DNA from: Brachybacterium massiliense
Lineage (GTDB): Bacteria; Actinomycetota; Actinomycetes; Actinomycetales; Dermabacteraceae
DNA length: 64,000 nt
Assembly: GCF_900184245.1 (NCBI RefSeq)
Contig: NZ_FXXB01000008.1
Coordinates: forward strand, 1,526,146 to 1,590,145
Direction: 5' to 3'
Every line of letters begins with the position of its first letter. The stretch's first letter is position 1. Position numbers and translations under genes: made by a program. Below the pieces are notes generated by a model. It ran no database searches, had not been told where the DNA came from, and was given only the letters and a program-made list of their open reading frames with translations. Below are positions 8,514-16,075 of the stretch, piece after piece.

Positions 8514-8613
8514 CCTTCTGCGCAGGAGATCCACGGACCCCCTCCCTGCGCGATACTCGATGACGGTCCTCCCGCCGACCGCCCACGACCACCCCCACGG
8601 AAGGACATCCTCC

Positions 8614-9684
8614 ATGTCGCAGCCCATCCAGGCTCTCAACATCCTCGGCGGCGTCGCCCCGACCGCACAGACCGCCCCGGCCGCGCAGCCCGAGACGGTC
8701 CAGGACGACACGATCCACGAGGTCGTCATCGTCGGCTCCGGTCCCGCGGGTTACACCGCCGCGATCTACACCGCGCGCGCCGAGATGAAGCCGATCGTGA
8801 TCGCCGGCGCCCTCGATGCCGGCGGCGCGCTGATGACCACCACCGACGTGGAGAACTTCCCCGGCTTCCCCCAGGGGATCCAGGGCCCGGAGCTGATGGC
8901 GAACCTGCAGGAGCAGGCGGAGCGGTTCGGCGCCGAGGTCATCTACGACGACGCGGTCGATCTCGAGCTCGAGGGCGACATCAAGACCGTCACCCTCGAG
9001 GACGGCACCGTCTACCGTGCGAAGTCGCTGATCATCACCACCGGCTCGGCATACCGCAAGCTCGGTGTGGACGGCGAGGCGACGCTCTCGGGCAAGGGCG
9101 TCAGCTGGTGCGCGACCTGCGACGGGTTCTTCTTCAAGGATCAGGAGATCGTGGTGGTCGGCGGCGGTGACAGCGCGGTCGAGGAGGCCACCTTCCTCAC
9201 CCGCTTCGGTAAGTCCGTCACACTGGTGCACCGCCGCGACGAGCTGCGCGCCTCGAAGATCATGGCCCGCCGCGCCGAGGCCGATCCGAAGCTCAGCTTC
9301 GCCTGGAACAGCGAGGTCGTCAGCATCAACGGCATCGACAAGGTCGAGTCGGTGACGCTGCGCGACACCGTGACCGGGCAGGAGCGGGTGCTCGAGACCT
9401 CGGCGGTGTTCGAGGCCATCGGCCACATCCCGCGCACCGATCTGGTGCGCGGCAAGCTGGCGCTGGACGACGAGGGATACATCGTGTGCGAGGGCCGCAC
9501 CACCTACACCTCGGTGCCCGGCGTCTTCGCCGCGGGTGACGTGGTGGACCACACCTACCGCCAGGCGATCACCGCCGCCGGCACCGGTTGCCAGGCCGCG
9601 CTGGATGCCGAGCGCTGGCTCGCCGACAAGGCCGCGGGGATCTCGGACGAGGAGTCAGTGGTGGCGGCCGTCGCCGCCCAGTGA
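8614..9684 (+). CDS. trxB: Thioredoxin-disulfide reductase
   Basis: Cytoplasmic FAD flavoenzyme that uses NADPH to reduce thioredoxin. ATG 8614 follows GGAAGGA at good spacing; 356 residues, slightly long because of a ~30-residue low-complexity N-terminus. Motifs in order: FAD-binding VVIVGSGPAGYTAAIYTARA, redox-active CATC (SWCATCDGFFF, near residue 166), NADPH-binding VVGGGDSAVEEATFL, and the C-terminal FAD motif GVFAAGDVVDHTYRQAITAA. The next gene overlaps its stop (GTGA), the usual trxB-trxA pairing at actinobacterial origins, although that partner here lacks the redox cysteines. Confidence 0.97.
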   Translation: MSQPIQALNILGGVAPTAQTAPAAQPETVQDDTIHEVVIVGSGPAGYTAAIYTARAEMKPIVIAGALDAGGALMTTTDVENFPGFPQGIQGPELMANLQEQAERFGAEVIYDDAVDLELEGDIKTVTLEDGTVYRAKSLIITTGSAYRKLGVDGEATLSGKGVSWCATCDGFFFKDQEIVVVGGGDSAVEEATFLTRFGKSVTLVHRRDELRASKIMARRAEADPKLSFAWNSEVVSINGIDKVESVTLRDTVTGQERVLETSAVFEAIGHIPRTDLVRGKLALDDEGYIVCEGRTTYTSVPGVFAAGDVVDHTYRQAITAAGTGCQAALDAERWLADKAAGISDEESVVAAVAAQ

Positions 9685-10076
9685 CCGCACAGCACTCCCA
9701 CGTTGCACCGCCGCCGGCCGACGACGTTCCGGCGGTGGTGCTGATCAGTGCACCGTGGGCCGGGCCGTCGCGCCCGGCTCCCACTGTGCTCGCCGAGCTG
9801 TCCCGGCGATGGGGCAGCTCGGTGCACACACTCCTGGTGGAGGATCCTGACGACGACCTGCTGGACCAGTGGGACGTGCAGATGCTGCCCACGTGGATGC
9901 GTTTCACGCCTCGTGCACTCTTCGACGACGAGAGCACGCTCTGCGTGGCACAGCTGACCGGGACGGGGCCGAGAGGGGAGCCGCTCGTGCTCGAGGGCCC
10001 CTGGACCCTTTCTCATCGGCGCAGCGGCGCCCTTCCCAAGCACGTGGTGGACGCGGACTTCGGTCCGAACACCTGA
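9681..10076 (+). CDS. Thioredoxin-like protein lacking the CXXC active site
   Basis: 131 residues from GTG 9681, overlapping the trxB stop. The fold pattern of thioredoxin is kept (AVVLISAPWAGPSRPAPTVL, VHTLLVEDPDDDLLDQWDVQ and the cis-proline segment LPTWMRF), but the usual WCGPC is WAGPS, so both catalytic cysteines are gone. It cannot act as a dithiol reductase. In related genomes this slot holds trxA/trxC. Either the protein has a non-redox role, such as a scaffold or a partner of TrxB, or it is a decaying paralogue replaced by another thioredoxin elsewhere. The frame is intact, which favours continued use. Confidence 0.8.
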   Translation: MTAQHSHVAPPPADDVPAVVLISAPWAGPSRPAPTVLAELSRRWGSSVHTLLVEDPDDDLLDQWDVQMLPTWMRFTPRALFDDESTLCVAQLTGTGPRGEPLVLEGPWTLSHRRSGALPKHVVDADFGPNT

Positions 10077-10157: not shown

Positions 10158-10413
10158 CTGTCCACAGTGTTATCCACAATAGTGTCCACACCCGACGACG
10201 GCTGTATCCACAGTTCTGTCCACAGAGGAATGTGGATAACTTTCTGGCACCTCGCGCATGGGTTGATTGAGAAAAACCCACTTTGACCTGGGCTTTTGCT
10301 ACTGAGTGCCCGCCGCTCCCTGGTTCTGCAGCCCGCCAAGGGATCGAGATGTTCCACGTCGATCCCGAATTCAGACACGTGTCGACGTTTCGTTGTCCAC
10401 AGAGTTGCGCACA
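10158..10413. promoter_or_regulatory. DnaA-box cluster A
   Basis: Eight 9-mers match or nearly match the DnaA box TTATCCACA/TTGTCCACA: CTGTCCACA 10158, TTATCCACA 10170, GTGTCCACA 10182, GTATCCACA 10204, CTGTCCACA 10216, TGTGGATAA (minus strand) 10231, TTGTCCACA 10393 and TTGCGCACA 10405. The first three, the fourth and fifth, and the last two are exactly 12 bp apart in the same orientation. This regular array could load a DnaA filament or titrate DnaA. Confidence 0.8.
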
Positions 10414-10777
10414 GTGTGCATAAGGCAGCGCGACGCGCTGTGGTGCCACGTGACCATGGGCGCTGCCGACGGCTGGGAGTGTCGCGGGGGACGCTCCGAC
10501 GATTCACGTGGGGCTGTCTCTCGCTGCTGTCCCGAGTGGGTGGGAGCGAGAGCGTGGGAGCCGAGGGCTCCACGGGAAACGACATCTTGTCACTCCGCCG
10601 CTTTCTGTCCCTGCCCCGTAGTTCGCAACGAAGTAGTTTTGCGTGAAACGTCGTCGGGAAAATCAAGACTTGCCTCTGGTGTCACTGTCGCTCAAGAGCC
10701 CTCCTCAGAGGCTTCACGCTGAACATGCCGCCGCTCACCATCGGGGGGAGGGCTATCTGCCTGGGTCAAGTTGTGGT

Positions 10778-10793
10778 GGTTTCGCGTGAAACA
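10778..10793. promoter_or_regulatory. parS site
   Basis: GGTTTCGCGTGAAACA, two differences from TGTTTCACGTGAAACA (positions 1 and 7). One of the three best matches in the array. Confidence 0.85.
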
Positions 10794-10850
10794 CATCGGC
10801 ACGCTCCTTCGGCAGCGGCGATATGACGGGAGCCGTGGTCTTGTTGAGCT

Positions 10851-10866
10851 GGTTTCACGCGAAACG
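10851..10866. promoter_or_regulatory. parS site
   Basis: GGTTTCACGCGAAACG, three differences from the consensus. The central change T to C leaves both TTTC/GAAA arms intact. Confidence 0.8.
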
Positions 10867-11117
10867 CTCGACTGGGTCGCTGGCATCGCGCCAAGATGCT
10901 GCGTCGACCGACATGCTTCATGAGGAGTTCCACGCGGAACATCACAACGCCCCCTTGGCGCCTGCCCAGCCAGCGGGCTGCTGACAGCGTCCGTTAGCTT
11001 CCGGAGACACTCAAGACGCGACCTAAGACCCTAGGTCACTGAAGGAGGATCTAGGCTGCTTTCCTCTCGAAATGCCGGAGCTGGAGCCGGCACCAGCCGG
11101 AAGAGTGGCGGTGTGTG

Positions 11118-11133
11118 CGTTGCACGTGAAACC
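11118..11133. promoter_or_regulatory. parS-like site
   Basis: CGTTGCACGTGAAACC, three differences; the CACGTG centre and the right arm GTGAAAC are intact, the left arm has one change. Confidence 0.7.
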
Positions 11134-11522
11134 ACTCCTCTCCGAGCACCGAATCGAAAGCGGCAGCGGCCTCACGTCGAAGCTCACGTACTCGCACGAG
11201 ACATACGTCAAGACCATCCCCTTCGCGGCTTAGGCTGCTTCTCCTTCACTGCATGCTCTGCTGAGCTGATCCAAGAAGTCTCTCAGCAATCCCGCCGCGC
11301 GCCCGCTCCACTCTTGCATCGCGACGTCCCGGCGCCGGCAATTACCTCGGAGCCACCCTGAGCTCCGCACGCGATCCCTTGTGCTCACTCACCAGCCATG
11401 AACAGCCTCCCTTCGTTACCGCGTTCGGTTTCACAGGGAACGGCTAAGAACTGGCCGCATGCTGTGGCGAGCGGGGTCGTAAAGACCCGTGGGCGCACTC
11501 ATATGTTGGCGCAAGCCTCAGA

Positions 11523-11538
11523 TGTTTCACGCGAAACG
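11523..11538. promoter_or_regulatory. parS site
   Basis: TGTTTCACGCGAAACG, two differences from the consensus (positions 10 and 16). Among the best matches in the window. Confidence 0.87.
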
Positions 11539-11592
11539 TCTACCGTTCGTCTGCCGAGAGACGCTCCTCGTCACCCCGAAGGTCCGATGCCG

Positions 11593-11608
11593 CGTTTCAC
11601 GTGCAACT
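11593..11608. promoter_or_regulatory. parS site
   Basis: CGTTTCACGTGCAACT, three differences; the left half GTTTCACGTG is perfect. Confidence 0.78.
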
Positions 11609-11746
11609 CCGTCTCTTGCGGACGGGCCTCCCACAGAGTCCGCGGACAGAGGGCGTGCCGCTACCGAACGGGCTGTCCGTACTGCTTGTAAGCAATGAAC
11701 GACGGGATCGTGCCGCGCATCGGGTATCTGTAGCACGCGGTAGCTG

Positions 11747-11762
11747 TGTTTCCCGTGAAACG
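11747..11762. promoter_or_regulatory. parS site
   Basis: TGTTTCCCGTGAAACG, two differences from the consensus; both arms intact. Confidence 0.85.
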
Positions 11763-11827
11763 CTGTCGGCACACGGCCGCAAGGAAACTGGTGCGCGCCG
11801 CGGAGACATGCTGCGTGGACCCAGTGA

Positions 11828-11843
11828 AGCTTCCCGTGAAACA
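11828..11843. promoter_or_regulatory. parS-like site
   Basis: AGCTTCCCGTGAAACA, three differences; the right arm GTGAAACA is perfect. Confidence 0.75.
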
Positions 11844-11897
11844 CGGCTGACTGGGATTGCGTGACGGCGGGTCGTACGCAACAGATTCGGATACGAG

Positions 11898-11913
11898 AGT
11901 TTCGCGTGAAACG
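11898..11913. promoter_or_regulatory. parS site
   Basis: AGTTTCGCGTGAAACG, three differences; core TTTCGCGTGAAAC is the same as at 10778. Confidence 0.8.
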
Positions 11914-12219
11914 CCGCACGGCGTGAGGACGCTAGGTGAGTATTCGTCGGGCAATGGCGAGGGCACGAGCAGAAGGCACCGGCCTACTTGCGCTGCCACG
12001 ACAAGCTTCACGGGCAACTCATGCCATCAACTACGCGCTGTGTGACAGTGAACCGCTACCGGGGCAGCAAGTAGAGAGTTCATGCGACGACTCACGCCAC
12101 CTACTGCGGTCACTCGCCGAGCGGTGACGGAGCGGACGATTCACGTGGAACCGCACCACGTGCACATGGAGCTGGTGGCGAGGGTGCGCAGCCGCATGAG
12201 AGACCCAGCAATGCGATCT

Positions 12220-12235
12220 AGTTTCGCGTGGAACT
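12220..12235. promoter_or_regulatory. parS-like site, right end of array
   Basis: AGTTTCGCGTGGAACT, four differences; last clear palindrome before DnaA-box cluster B. Confidence 0.68.
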
Positions 12236-12377: not shown

Positions 12378-12448
12378 GTATCCACAGAGTTGTGCACATC
12401 GGTGGAAAAGCTTTCCACGCCGCCTGACCTGCACGAACTATGTCCACA
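12378..12448. promoter_or_regulatory. DnaA-box cluster B
   Basis: GTATCCACA at 12378, TTGTGCACA at 12390 (again 12 bp spacing) and ATGTCCACA at 12440. Between them is an inverted repeat with 7-bp arms, GTGGAAA/TTTCCAC, around 12402-12418. With cluster A this brackets the parS array. The matches are weaker than in cluster A. Confidence 0.55.
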
Positions 12449-12617
12449 GCACCTTACACAAGTGTGTACAACTGGACTGGAAACCTTTCGTGACATCTTT
12501 GGCCCTATAGTCATTATCTGGGCGACGTCGTGCCAGAAGGCAGGGAACACTCCCGAACCTCGCGGCACTCCCCGATGAGGCATGCTCACGTGCCGTGAAA
12601 CCCCCGGGCACGAAGAA

Positions 12618-14484: not shown

Positions 14485-15408
14485 TCAGGGTGCCGGTCGG
14501 GTGTTGAGCTCGTGGGCCGCGGCCCGGTAGGCCAGTGCACCGCTCGAGCTCGGATCATAGGTCAGCACCGTCTGGCCGTAGCTGGGTGCCTCCGAGATCC
14601 TCACCGAGCGGGGGATGCTGGTCTCGAGGGTCTGCTCCGGGAAGTGATCACGCACGTCCTGGGCGACCTGCGCGGCCAGCCGGGTGCGCGCGTCATACAT
14701 GGTGAGCATGATCGTGGAGACCACCAGCTCCGGGTTCAGGTGCTGGCGGATCAGCTCGATGTTGTTCAGCAGCAGCGAGAGGCCCTCGAGCGCGTAGTAC
14801 TCGGCCTGGATCGGGATCAGCACCTCGCGCGCGGCGACCAGTGCGTTGACGGTCAGCAGGCCGAGCGAGGGCGGGCAGTCGATGAGCACGTAGTCCAGCG
14901 GCTCGAGACCGCGCTGCTCGCGGTCCTCCAGCAGGTCCCGAATGGCGTTGCGCAGGCGGTTCTCGCGCGCGACGAGGGAGACCAGCTCGATCTCCGCTCC
15001 GGAGAGGTTGATGGTGGCCGGCGCGCAGTACAGGCGGTCCATCTCGGGGACGGCCTGGATCACCTCGGCCAGCGGCGTGGACTCCACGAGCACCTCGTAC
15101 ATGCTCGGCACCTCGGCGTGATGGTCGATGCTCAGCGCCGTGGAGGTGTTGCCCTGCGGGTCGGCGTCGATGACCAGGACGTTCAGCCCGCCCATGGACA
15201 GCGCCGCGCCGAGGTTCACGGTGGTGGAGGTCTTGCCGACCCCGCCCTTCTGGTTCGCGACCGTGATGATGCGAGTCGTCTCGGGACGCTGCAGGGTGAG
15301 CCCCTCGAGCTTCTTGCGACGGGCGTGGTCCCGGGTCAGCTCGCGCATCAGCGGGGTGTCTTCCATCGCGCCGTGTCCCGGGGAGGTGTCATCGCGCGCT
15401 TCAGCCAC
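14485..15408 (-). CDS. parA: ParA chromosome partition ATPase
   Basis: Deviant-Walker ATPase that binds DNA nonspecifically and draws ParB-parS complexes apart. Residues TTRIITVANQKGGVGKTST contain the Walker A motif with both lysines; LIDADPQGN and YVLIDCPPSLG are the A' and Walker B motifs. GTG 15408 is chosen because it overlaps the rsmG stop by a few bases and gives 307 residues with a short N-terminal extension. An ATG 15 codons inward (MEDTPLMREL) is the alternative. It sits between rsmG and parB in the conserved minus-strand operon. Confidence 0.95.
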   Translation of the reverse strand: MAEARDDTSPGHGAMEDTPLMRELTRDHARRKKLEGLTLQRPETTRIITVANQKGGVGKTSTTVNLGAALSMGGLNVLVIDADPQGNTSTALSIDHHAEVPSMYEVLVESTPLAEVIQAVPEMDRLYCAPATINLSGAEIELVSLVARENRLRNAIRDLLEDREQRGLEPLDYVLIDCPPSLGLLTVNALVAAREVLIPIQAEYYALEGLSLLLNNIELIRQHLNPELVVSTIMLTMYDARTRLAAQVAQDVRDHFPEQTLETSIPRSVRISEAPSYGQTVLTYDPSSSGALAYRAAAHELNTRPAP

Positions 15409-16075
15409 GTGGGTCTCCCTTCCTGGTCGCCTTCGCACGGCGACGCACTTGGACCACTGTAGTGGGAACCTCGACCTCGCCCACCCCGTACCGGGAGATG
15501 GTGGGCGGGGCGCCCCCGAGCTTCGTGAGGACCTTCTGGGCCTTGTCGACCTCATCGGCGGCCGACGAACCCTTCATGGCCAGCAGATGACCGTCCTCCG
15601 CCACCAGGGGCAGAGTCCAGCGGGCGAGCTTGTCGAGCGCGGCGACCGCCCGGGCGGTCACCACCTCGAAGGAGCGGGTCCCGTGCAGCTCCTCGGCACG
15701 GGCCCGGACCACCTCGAGGCCGAGGCCCAGTTCGGCGTCGACCTCCTCGAGCCAGGTGGTGCGACGCTGCATCGTCTCGATCAGCGTGACCTCCAGCTCC
15801 GGGCGGGCGATCGCGATCACCACACCGGGCAGCCCGGCACCGGAGCCGACGTCGGCCAGGGTTCTCGCCCCGGGAGCGGCGTCGTCGATCGCGTCGGCCA
15901 TGAACGCGCAGTTGAGCAGGTGGCGCTCCCACAGGCGCTCCACCTCGCGGGGACCGATCAGACCCCGCTCCGGCCCCTGCTCGGCGAGCAGGGAGACGAA
16001 GCGCTCCGCGAGGTCGAGGCGCTCTCCGAAGAGGCGCTCGGCCGTCGGGCGCAGGGGCGCGGGCAGGGTCTGCAC
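15401..16075 (-). CDS. rsmG: 16S rRNA (guanine-527-N7)-methyltransferase RsmG
   Basis: SAM-dependent enzyme that methylates G527 of 16S rRNA; loss gives low-level streptomycin resistance in several bacteria. 224 residues from GTG 16075. The SAM-binding motif is LADVGSGAGLPGVVIAIARP, followed by VTLIETMQRRTTWLEEV and the later motif VTARAVAALDKLARW. It starts 8 bp after the jag stop and overlaps parA, so it is an internal member of the rpmH-parB operon. Confidence 0.95.
   Translation of the reverse strand: MQTLPAPLRPTAERLFGERLDLAERFVSLLAEQGPERGLIGPREVERLWERHLLNCAFMADAIDDAAPGARTLADVGSGAGLPGVVIAIARPELEVTLIETMQRRTTWLEEVDAELGLGLEVVRARAEELHGTRSFEVVTARAVAALDKLARWTLPLVAEDGHLLAMKGSSAADEVDKAQKVLTKLGGAPPTISRYGVGEVEVPTTVVQVRRRAKATRKGDPRG

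Follow-up and report, generated by a model that had tools for sequence, protein, structure and literature searches.

A compact array of varied, sub-consensus parS-type sites beside parB, the probable centromere of Brachybacterium massiliense

The parS motif is often treated as near-invariant, and how strong a ParB-loading site must be is a question that the locus examined here raises in a simple form, namely whether a chromosomal centromere can consist of ParB sites none of which is a perfect palindrome. Our window, i.e., the whole stretch of 64,000 nucleotides of the Brachybacterium massiliense genome that was analysed, had been read in a preliminary description as carrying about 20 parS-like palindromes in gene-free DNA next to parB. 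An array of about 15 ParB-type sites beside parB is real and looks gene-free (Table 1), and, judging from its sequence and that of its relatives, it is probably the centromere of this genome.

Table 1. Sites, boxes and genes of the array region, numbered from the first letter of the window
Feature	Position	Strand	Basis
parS-like array	10567..12234	.	15 sites with at most 3 mismatches from GTTTCACGTGAAAC; same place in relatives
parS-like site, 3 mismatches	10567..10580	+	GTTTCACGTGAAAC scan
parS-like site, 2 mismatches	10636..10649	+	GTTTCACGTGAAAC scan
parS-like site, 1 mismatch (A6G, one half)	10779..10792	+	GTTTCACGTGAAAC scan
parS-like site, 1 mismatch (A6G)	10852..10865	+	GTTTCACGTGAAAC scan
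parS-like site, 3 mismatches	10927..10940	+	GTTTCACGTGAAAC scan
parS-like site, 1 mismatch (T4G)	11119..11132	+	GTTTCACGTGAAAC scan
parS-like site, 3 mismatches	11428..11441	+	GTTTCACGTGAAAC scan
parS-like site, 1 mismatch (A6G)	11524..11537	+	GTTTCACGTGAAAC scan
parS-like site, 1 mismatch (T4G)	11594..11607	+	GTTTCACGTGAAAC scan
parS-like site, 1 mismatch (A6C)	11748..11761	+	GTTTCACGTGAAAC scan
parS-like site, 2 mismatches	11829..11842	+	GTTTCACGTGAAAC scan
parS-like site, 1 mismatch (A6G)	11899..11912	+	GTTTCACGTGAAAC scan
parS-like site, 3 mismatches	12005..12018	+	GTTTCACGTGAAAC scan
parS-like site, 2 mismatches	12138..12151	+	GTTTCACGTGAAAC scan
parS-like site, 2 mismatches	12221..12234	+	GTTTCACGTGAAAC scan
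8 DnaA-box-like nonamers, trxB-side cluster	10158..10423	.	box scan
4 DnaA-box-like nonamers, parB-side cluster	12378..12471	.	box scan
parB, 579 codons	12665..14404	-	Pfam ParB_N, HTH_ParB, ParB_C
parA (longest ORF; true start maybe downstream)	14485..15555	-	named from translation; homologue adjoins parB in relatives
trxB (putative start), near the gap's other end	8560..9684	+	named from translation

Within three mismatches of GTTTCACGTGAAAC, the scan of the whole 64 kb found 15 14-mers (seven with one mismatch, four with two and four with three) and none outside the array, which confirms the position and density first described; a 16-mer scan at the same threshold gave eight matches in the window, the chance mean being 0.01. 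Fifteen of the claimed 20 or so sites therefore stand, but the other five or so (e.g., 10350, 10501 and 10710) have at least four core mismatches and lie near the chance level: over 35 genus stretches, 33 four-mismatch matches were seen against 21.4 in shuffles, so that singly such sites are indistinguishable from chance. The places singled out as near-perfect (10778, 11523 and 11747) do belong to the best class, but each has one core mismatch and none is perfect. Among the seven one-mismatch sites of the window's own array, the change is A6G in four and A6C in one. A genome-wide comparison of density, proposed as a check in the preliminary description, bore the array out: the seven places within one mismatch of GTTTCACGTGAAAC in the genome equal the array's own seven, and the looser motif GTTTCNCGNGAAAC has 11 places within one mismatch, 10 of them in the array. 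No perfect GTTTCACGTGAAAC was found in the genome scan, and thus the usual form of centromere, with at least one perfect 14-bp parS, is not what this genome has.

The window is the origin region, with the order trxB, a small ORF, the gap, parB, parA, rsmG, others, and then dnaA and dnaN, several of these names (including parA, trxB and dnaA) being readings of translations. It has marks of a chromosomal ParABS system, with parA and parB adjacent and near dnaA, and parS palindromes enriched near the origin at 10567-12234. ParB carries its three domains, all over cut-off: N-terminal (CTP), HTH and dimerisation (PF02195, PF17762 and PF23552). Eleven ORFs of at least 90 aa overlap the gap between trxB and parB; the eight that were scanned have no Pfam match, Rfam has no match in the gap, and the spacers are poorly conserved between species, all of which agrees with the gap being gene-free. 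The small ORF that follows trxB (9681-10076) is also without a Pfam match; we take it to resemble a thioredoxin lacking the active-site cysteines.

The arrangement extends far beyond this species. A ParB search yielded 51 loci, and all 13 titled Brachybacterium have 11–17 sites within three mismatches just downstream of parB, none of them perfect, whereas 14 of 21 other actinobacterial loci scanned have perfect sites. Our comparison set contained 35 genus and nine sister-genus stretches, with both parB and trxB found in 34 and nine, and the array lies between the two genes in all of these; the 35th genus array (G030) is visible beside trxB only and was read inwards from there, and three of the 38 genus genomes (G026, G029 and G032) were dropped because their array was not readable. 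Sites with zero, one, two and three mismatches number 5, 234, 204 and 35 in the genus, against means of 0, 0, 0.2 and 1.9 in ten shuffles, and 55, 55, 13 and 3 in the sisters. Array size hardly differs (means of 12.7 genus and 13.7 sister sites within two mismatches, p 0.34), and since sister genera equal the genus in site number, the array is older than the genus. Quality, on the other hand, does differ: a perfect site is lacking in 36 of 38 genus genomes (incomplete assemblies among them) but in none of the nine sisters, each of which has 3–9. The exceptions, G007 with four perfect sites and G019 with one, are both nested inside the genus on our one tree, built from the 42 loci that have all three genes; the simplest reading is therefore that the sub-consensus state goes back to the base of the genus. 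In G007 (L115), the four perfect sites stand among 13 within two mismatches, possibly a regain of strong sites.

Across 248 genomes sampled from the order, perfect sites occur in 193, and sites with at most one mismatch in 232. Compact perfect clusters occur elsewhere in it, among those listed in G187 (12 sites listed within about 2 kb), G235 and G109, and eight of the nine sister genomes (G038-G046) crowd many sites into about 1 to 3.5 kb; these resemble the array in site number, but theirs are perfect palindromes. G144 and G232 come closer, since their arrays are likewise compact and lack any perfect site; over about 2.6 kb they have 8 and 10 one-mismatch sites, in which one half is intact and the other altered. 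In 17 of these 18 sites, the sequence is GTTCCACGTGAAAC in either orientation, a single T4C, whereas the sites studied here are varied and mostly changed at position 6. T4C is a variation allowed by the B. subtilis-type parS consensus. Given these compact clusters and non-perfect arrays elsewhere in the order, a compact array is known ground; on the sequences compared, the array is ordinary in kind, family-wide in place and size, and an old feature of the family. What is new is the varied, sub-consensus and asymmetric character of the sites across a whole genus. The premise that parS sites are low in number or scattered across tens to hundreds of kilobases holds only in part: wide scatter exists but is restricted to a few lineages, and sites often lie close together, a few kb apart, according to the portion of PMC8357415 available. 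As a separate observation, genomes of the order family f8 (G053, G071, G087, G102, G128 and others) have ScpA but no site within one mismatch of parS anywhere in the genome, which may reflect another motif or loss of parS.

The array had also been thought to have grown by adding sites and to be partly decaying now; the first idea gained no backing, and the second is contradicted. No tandem repeat and no repeated spacer units were found in the array, whose four repeat families are site or box motifs plus one 23-nt pair, and sisters have as many sites; growth by tandem duplication was thus rejected. As for decay, the sub-consensus state is genus-wide, 662 of the 747 substitutions in sites within three mismatches fall at half-site positions 2, 4 and 6, and the closest pair of genomes (G013/G034) is mostly unchanged in its sites. 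In that pair, the one close pair in which conservation is well measured, 3 of 182 site bases differ (1.6%) against 603 of 3084 spacer bases (19.6%; Fisher p 5e-13), and of 13 sites 10 are identical, two differ by one base and one falls to three mismatches. The gap aligns poorly in four more distant pairs, with 5 to 12 sites in shared columns. Spacing, for which the 8.5 kb gap of G016 (L121) was excluded, is even (CV 0.50 against 0.93 for random placement), spacings below 60 bp number 23 of 395 where 120 were expected, and no helical phasing was seen at periods of 10, 10.5 or 11.

The commonest form in the genus, 89 of 443 sites within two mismatches, joins an intact half to an A6C half. No evident bias was found in the direction of the intact half (108 versus 126 sites with a single change in one half). 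Some general causes for the scarcity of perfect sites were tried and set aside. Avoidance of the restriction-type word CACGTG does not fit, as many genus sites contain it; high GC as the sole cause is disfavoured by loci of 69–73% GC that carry perfect sites; and a half-site-count test of avoidance (121.5 expected, 5 seen) was abandoned, because the independence that it assumes fails once a strength threshold applies.

The explanation that we favour, and hold to be somewhat probable, is a compact ParB-loading centromere of sub-consensus sites, the only dense parS cluster of the window's genome. At the level of sequence, this agrees with the compact centromere or loading platform first proposed, given the conserved place beside parB, the intact ParB domains, the greater conservation of sites than of spacers in the one close pair, and DNA-reading residues in ParB like those of relatives with perfect sites. 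What the weakness of the sites means is a further matter, for which one answer is a flat landscape: an ordinary centromere whose sites need only be good enough, with mutation in GC-rich DNA making perfect ones rare and no preference for weak ones. We give it an appreciable chance, though short of even. Its null weights single variants at positions 2, 4 and 6 by gap base composition, strong forms are perfect or single T4C sites, and the p values assume independent sites, although counts from related species are not independent. Perfect sites are expected to be few anyway: 7.9 in the whole genus against 5 seen (p 0.20), or 5.6 against 5 without A6C; 4.0 against 1 in the 28 crown and middle genomes without A6C (p 0.09); and 1.3 against 0 in the basal genomes minus G007, where 6.3 strong forms are expected and 4 are seen. 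The single A6C form tells the other way, being present in 26 of the 28 crown and middle genomes and seen 82 times against 23.2 expected (3.5-fold, genome bootstrap 2.9–4.1), and so does position 6 in the crown, where exactly one C is preferred (A/A 1, A/C 68 and C/C 1), a hump that fits neither a simple preference for A nor a simple preference for C. Strong forms in these 28 genomes (8 seen, 29.5 expected, p 3e-6) give a contrast that is overstated because the A6C excess inflates all other expectations, but a shortfall is left with A6C excluded (8 against 18.6, p 0.005, bootstrap ratio 0.10–0.82) and with both A6C and A6G excluded (8 against 15.1, p 0.036). In the whole genus without A6C, the depletion is gone (21 against 26.4, p 0.17). 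Scarcity need not follow strength alone, since T2G and T4C are equally scarce (7 each against 14.6 expected) although T2G does not count among the strong forms. The seven basal genomes show no depletion of strong forms (13 against 7.9, all four perfect sites being in G007), but they too depart from flatness in T2C (15 against 6.3) and T2G (0 against 6.3). A flat landscape must still account for the nine sisters, with 82 strong forms against 15.0 expected and 55 perfect sites against 4.2. It is secure that the genus no longer shows the demand for strong sites seen in the sisters and that one-sided A6C is favoured in the crown, and it is tentative that strong sites are selected against in the genus; selection for intermediate strength would be a step further, drawn from moderate statistics. 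A tuned low-affinity centromere, in which selection after condensin loss would act against perfect parS and for one-sided A6C, so that many quick-release loading points, set at even intervals beside DnaA-box clusters, take the place of a few strong ones, seems to us rather unlikely as a whole. If it were true, the gap between trxB and parB might be a combined origin-centromere unit.

It could also be that the protein changed rather than the demand on its sites, the genus ParB preferring other bases and the sites being strong for their own ParB; we regard this as improbable. In favour of it, genus sites have their own stable substitution pattern, and a K or R at position 179 or 184, such as the basic residue at 184 here, is described as permissive in the accessible text of PMC7383237. 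Mapped by eye against Caulobacter, the genus ParB has R173, T179, a basic residue at 184 and G201; the same source reports R173 and G201 as conserved in all extant ParBs. The reading residues are, however, like those of sisters with perfect sites, and because sisters also have R or K at 184, a basic residue there is insufficient by itself for the change in genus sites. Over the last 310 residues of 34 genus and 10 sister sequences (one genome contributing two), the only near-fixed genus-specific columns are 316 and 377, both outside the HTH (409-506), and a preference for C6 in both halves should yield C/C sites, of which the crown has 1 against 68 A/C. A decaying remnant of former parS sites is hardly credible and already contradicted: sites do range from one to at least three mismatches, and one of 13 falls to three between G013 and G034, but they diverge far less than spacers in that pair, their mismatches are concentrated at few positions, their number and spacing are steady across the genus, and no better sites exist elsewhere in the window genome. 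Equally implausible is that the palindromes belong to another DNA-binding protein, e.g., a Noc-like paralogue. C at position 6 is the Noc-type base, preferred by the Noc-type R201 (PMC7383237, in part), and besides parB the window's genome contains another, distantly ParB-like frame (30% identity); distant frames of this kind also occur in G036 and G030. Against this, a search with full ParB in eight other genus genomes matched the parB locus only, and all eight have the array; the Noc-type residues Q173 and R201 are absent from the neighbouring ParB, which has R173 and G201 instead in the alignment by eye. The distant frames (27–33% identity) lie at G000:C3:699655-700185 and at G036:C21 and C23, both besides the main parB, while the frame at G030:C450 is the only match in the fragmented G030.

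SMC-ScpAB condensin is usually loaded at ParB-parS, and the genus genomes tested do not show the combination of SMC and ScpA that such a loading site would serve. ScpA (PF02616) was found in none of 19 family genomes (the window's own included), against 214 of the 229 genomes sampled from the rest of the order, and in 9 of 14 control genomes; SMC (TIGR02168) passed the cut-off in none of 33 genus genomes and in one of nine sisters (G044, with sites spread over 6.7 kb). Matches to SMC below the cut-off occur in every genome, and among those listed for the other family members the strongest reaches 44 bits. Outside the family, ScpA is missing from 15 genomes, some of these misses having been identified by subtraction; fragmentary assemblies are among them, as are four members of genus g25. 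That condensin appears to be lost from a family retaining ParABS, with SMC over the cut-off in 1 of 42 family genomes (G044), is an observation in its own right. This loss preceded the change in sites, as perfect ones persist in sisters that lack SMC; the same sisters, together with G144 and G232, which have ScpA and no perfect site, weaken SMC loss as a sole cause. In genus g25 of family f4, G081, G136, G149 and G162 have no ScpA, no SMC over the cut-off and no perfect parS, but 8–15 one-mismatch places (scattered in G081 and G162), and the members with ScpA (G065, G188, G201, G246 and G256) have 3–11 perfect sites. In C. glutamicum, smc can be deleted without apparent growth phenotype, as far as the available text of PMC11898615 goes.

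Returning to the ParB-loading centromere of sub-consensus sites, we infer how it might work from the computed features, i.e., place, count, close-pair conservation, spacing, substitution pattern, ParB residues, and the lack of SMC and ScpA matches above the cut-off. ParB dimers would bind the 15 or so parS sites between trxB and parB, be loaded there as CTP clamps, move into the spacers by sliding and form one partition complex, which ParA would move. Selection in the genus would no longer demand a perfect palindrome but would maintain a steady number of evenly spaced sites, the typical one having an intact half GTTTCAC and another half weakened at position 6, 4 or 2. Weak sites may be kept because the array acts by number and spacing and not through a few very strong nucleation points, and also because condensin SMC-ScpAB, which was not detected in genus genomes, would not have to be served. 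The four three-mismatch sites of the window may be silent, since degenerate C. glutamicum sites with at least three mismatches failed to recruit ParB (PMC7083940, in the part available). Half-sites are bound by some ParBs, and such binding was not seen for S. coelicolor, C. glutamicum and others in the portion of PMC7022226 at hand.

Among known systems, the C. glutamicum ParABS centromere is similar in being a many-site cluster in an actinobacterium. There, ten identical parS sites, nine of them intergenic, are spread over 35 kb, lie 73 kb from oriC and load SMC (PMC7083940, in part); here, the sites are varied, none is perfect, they span 1.7 kb, and SMC and ScpA were not detected. The Noc-binding site (NBS) shares with our sites a C at half-site position 6, but it also has A at position 1, and the ParB here aligns with R173 and G201 and not with the Noc residues (PMC7383237, in part). 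In line with the preliminary description, which knew of no such array in this lineage, we found no paper on Brachybacterium parS in a search that lay outside most subscription journals, and the text of PMC4255298, as far as available, does not discuss it. The genus may serve as a natural experiment, in which the ParB residues are alike and the array has the same size and place, but the sites are sub-consensus and SMC was not detected; it would show whether ParB loading and ParA segregation require the perfect palindrome or whether condensin loading is its main use. In practical terms, a search confined to perfect parS would overlook the centromere of 36 among the 38 genus genomes examined. NBS, for comparison, has C6 in both halves.

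Finally, DnaA boxes flank the array. GC skew in the window has no clear minimum and is uninformative for origin placement. Counting nonamers within one mismatch of TTRTCCACA in 34 genus arrays (G016 again excluded), we found 189 boxes on the trxB side (4.65 per kb, in 34 of 34), 54 on the parB side (3.03 per kb, in 25 of 34) and 14 inside the array (0.23 per kb, one shuffle giving 0.18–0.28 per kb). Two box spacings recur, 12 bp on the same strand (51 cases) and 15 bp on opposite strands (23 cases). Twelve loci with readable dnaA-dnaN gaps have 73 boxes on the trxB side, 35 between dnaA and dnaN, 23 on the parB side, 2 in the array and 74 in the remainder. The trxB side of these 12 genus loci thus holds about twice as many boxes as the dnaA-dnaN gap, and it is possibly a second or even the main origin.
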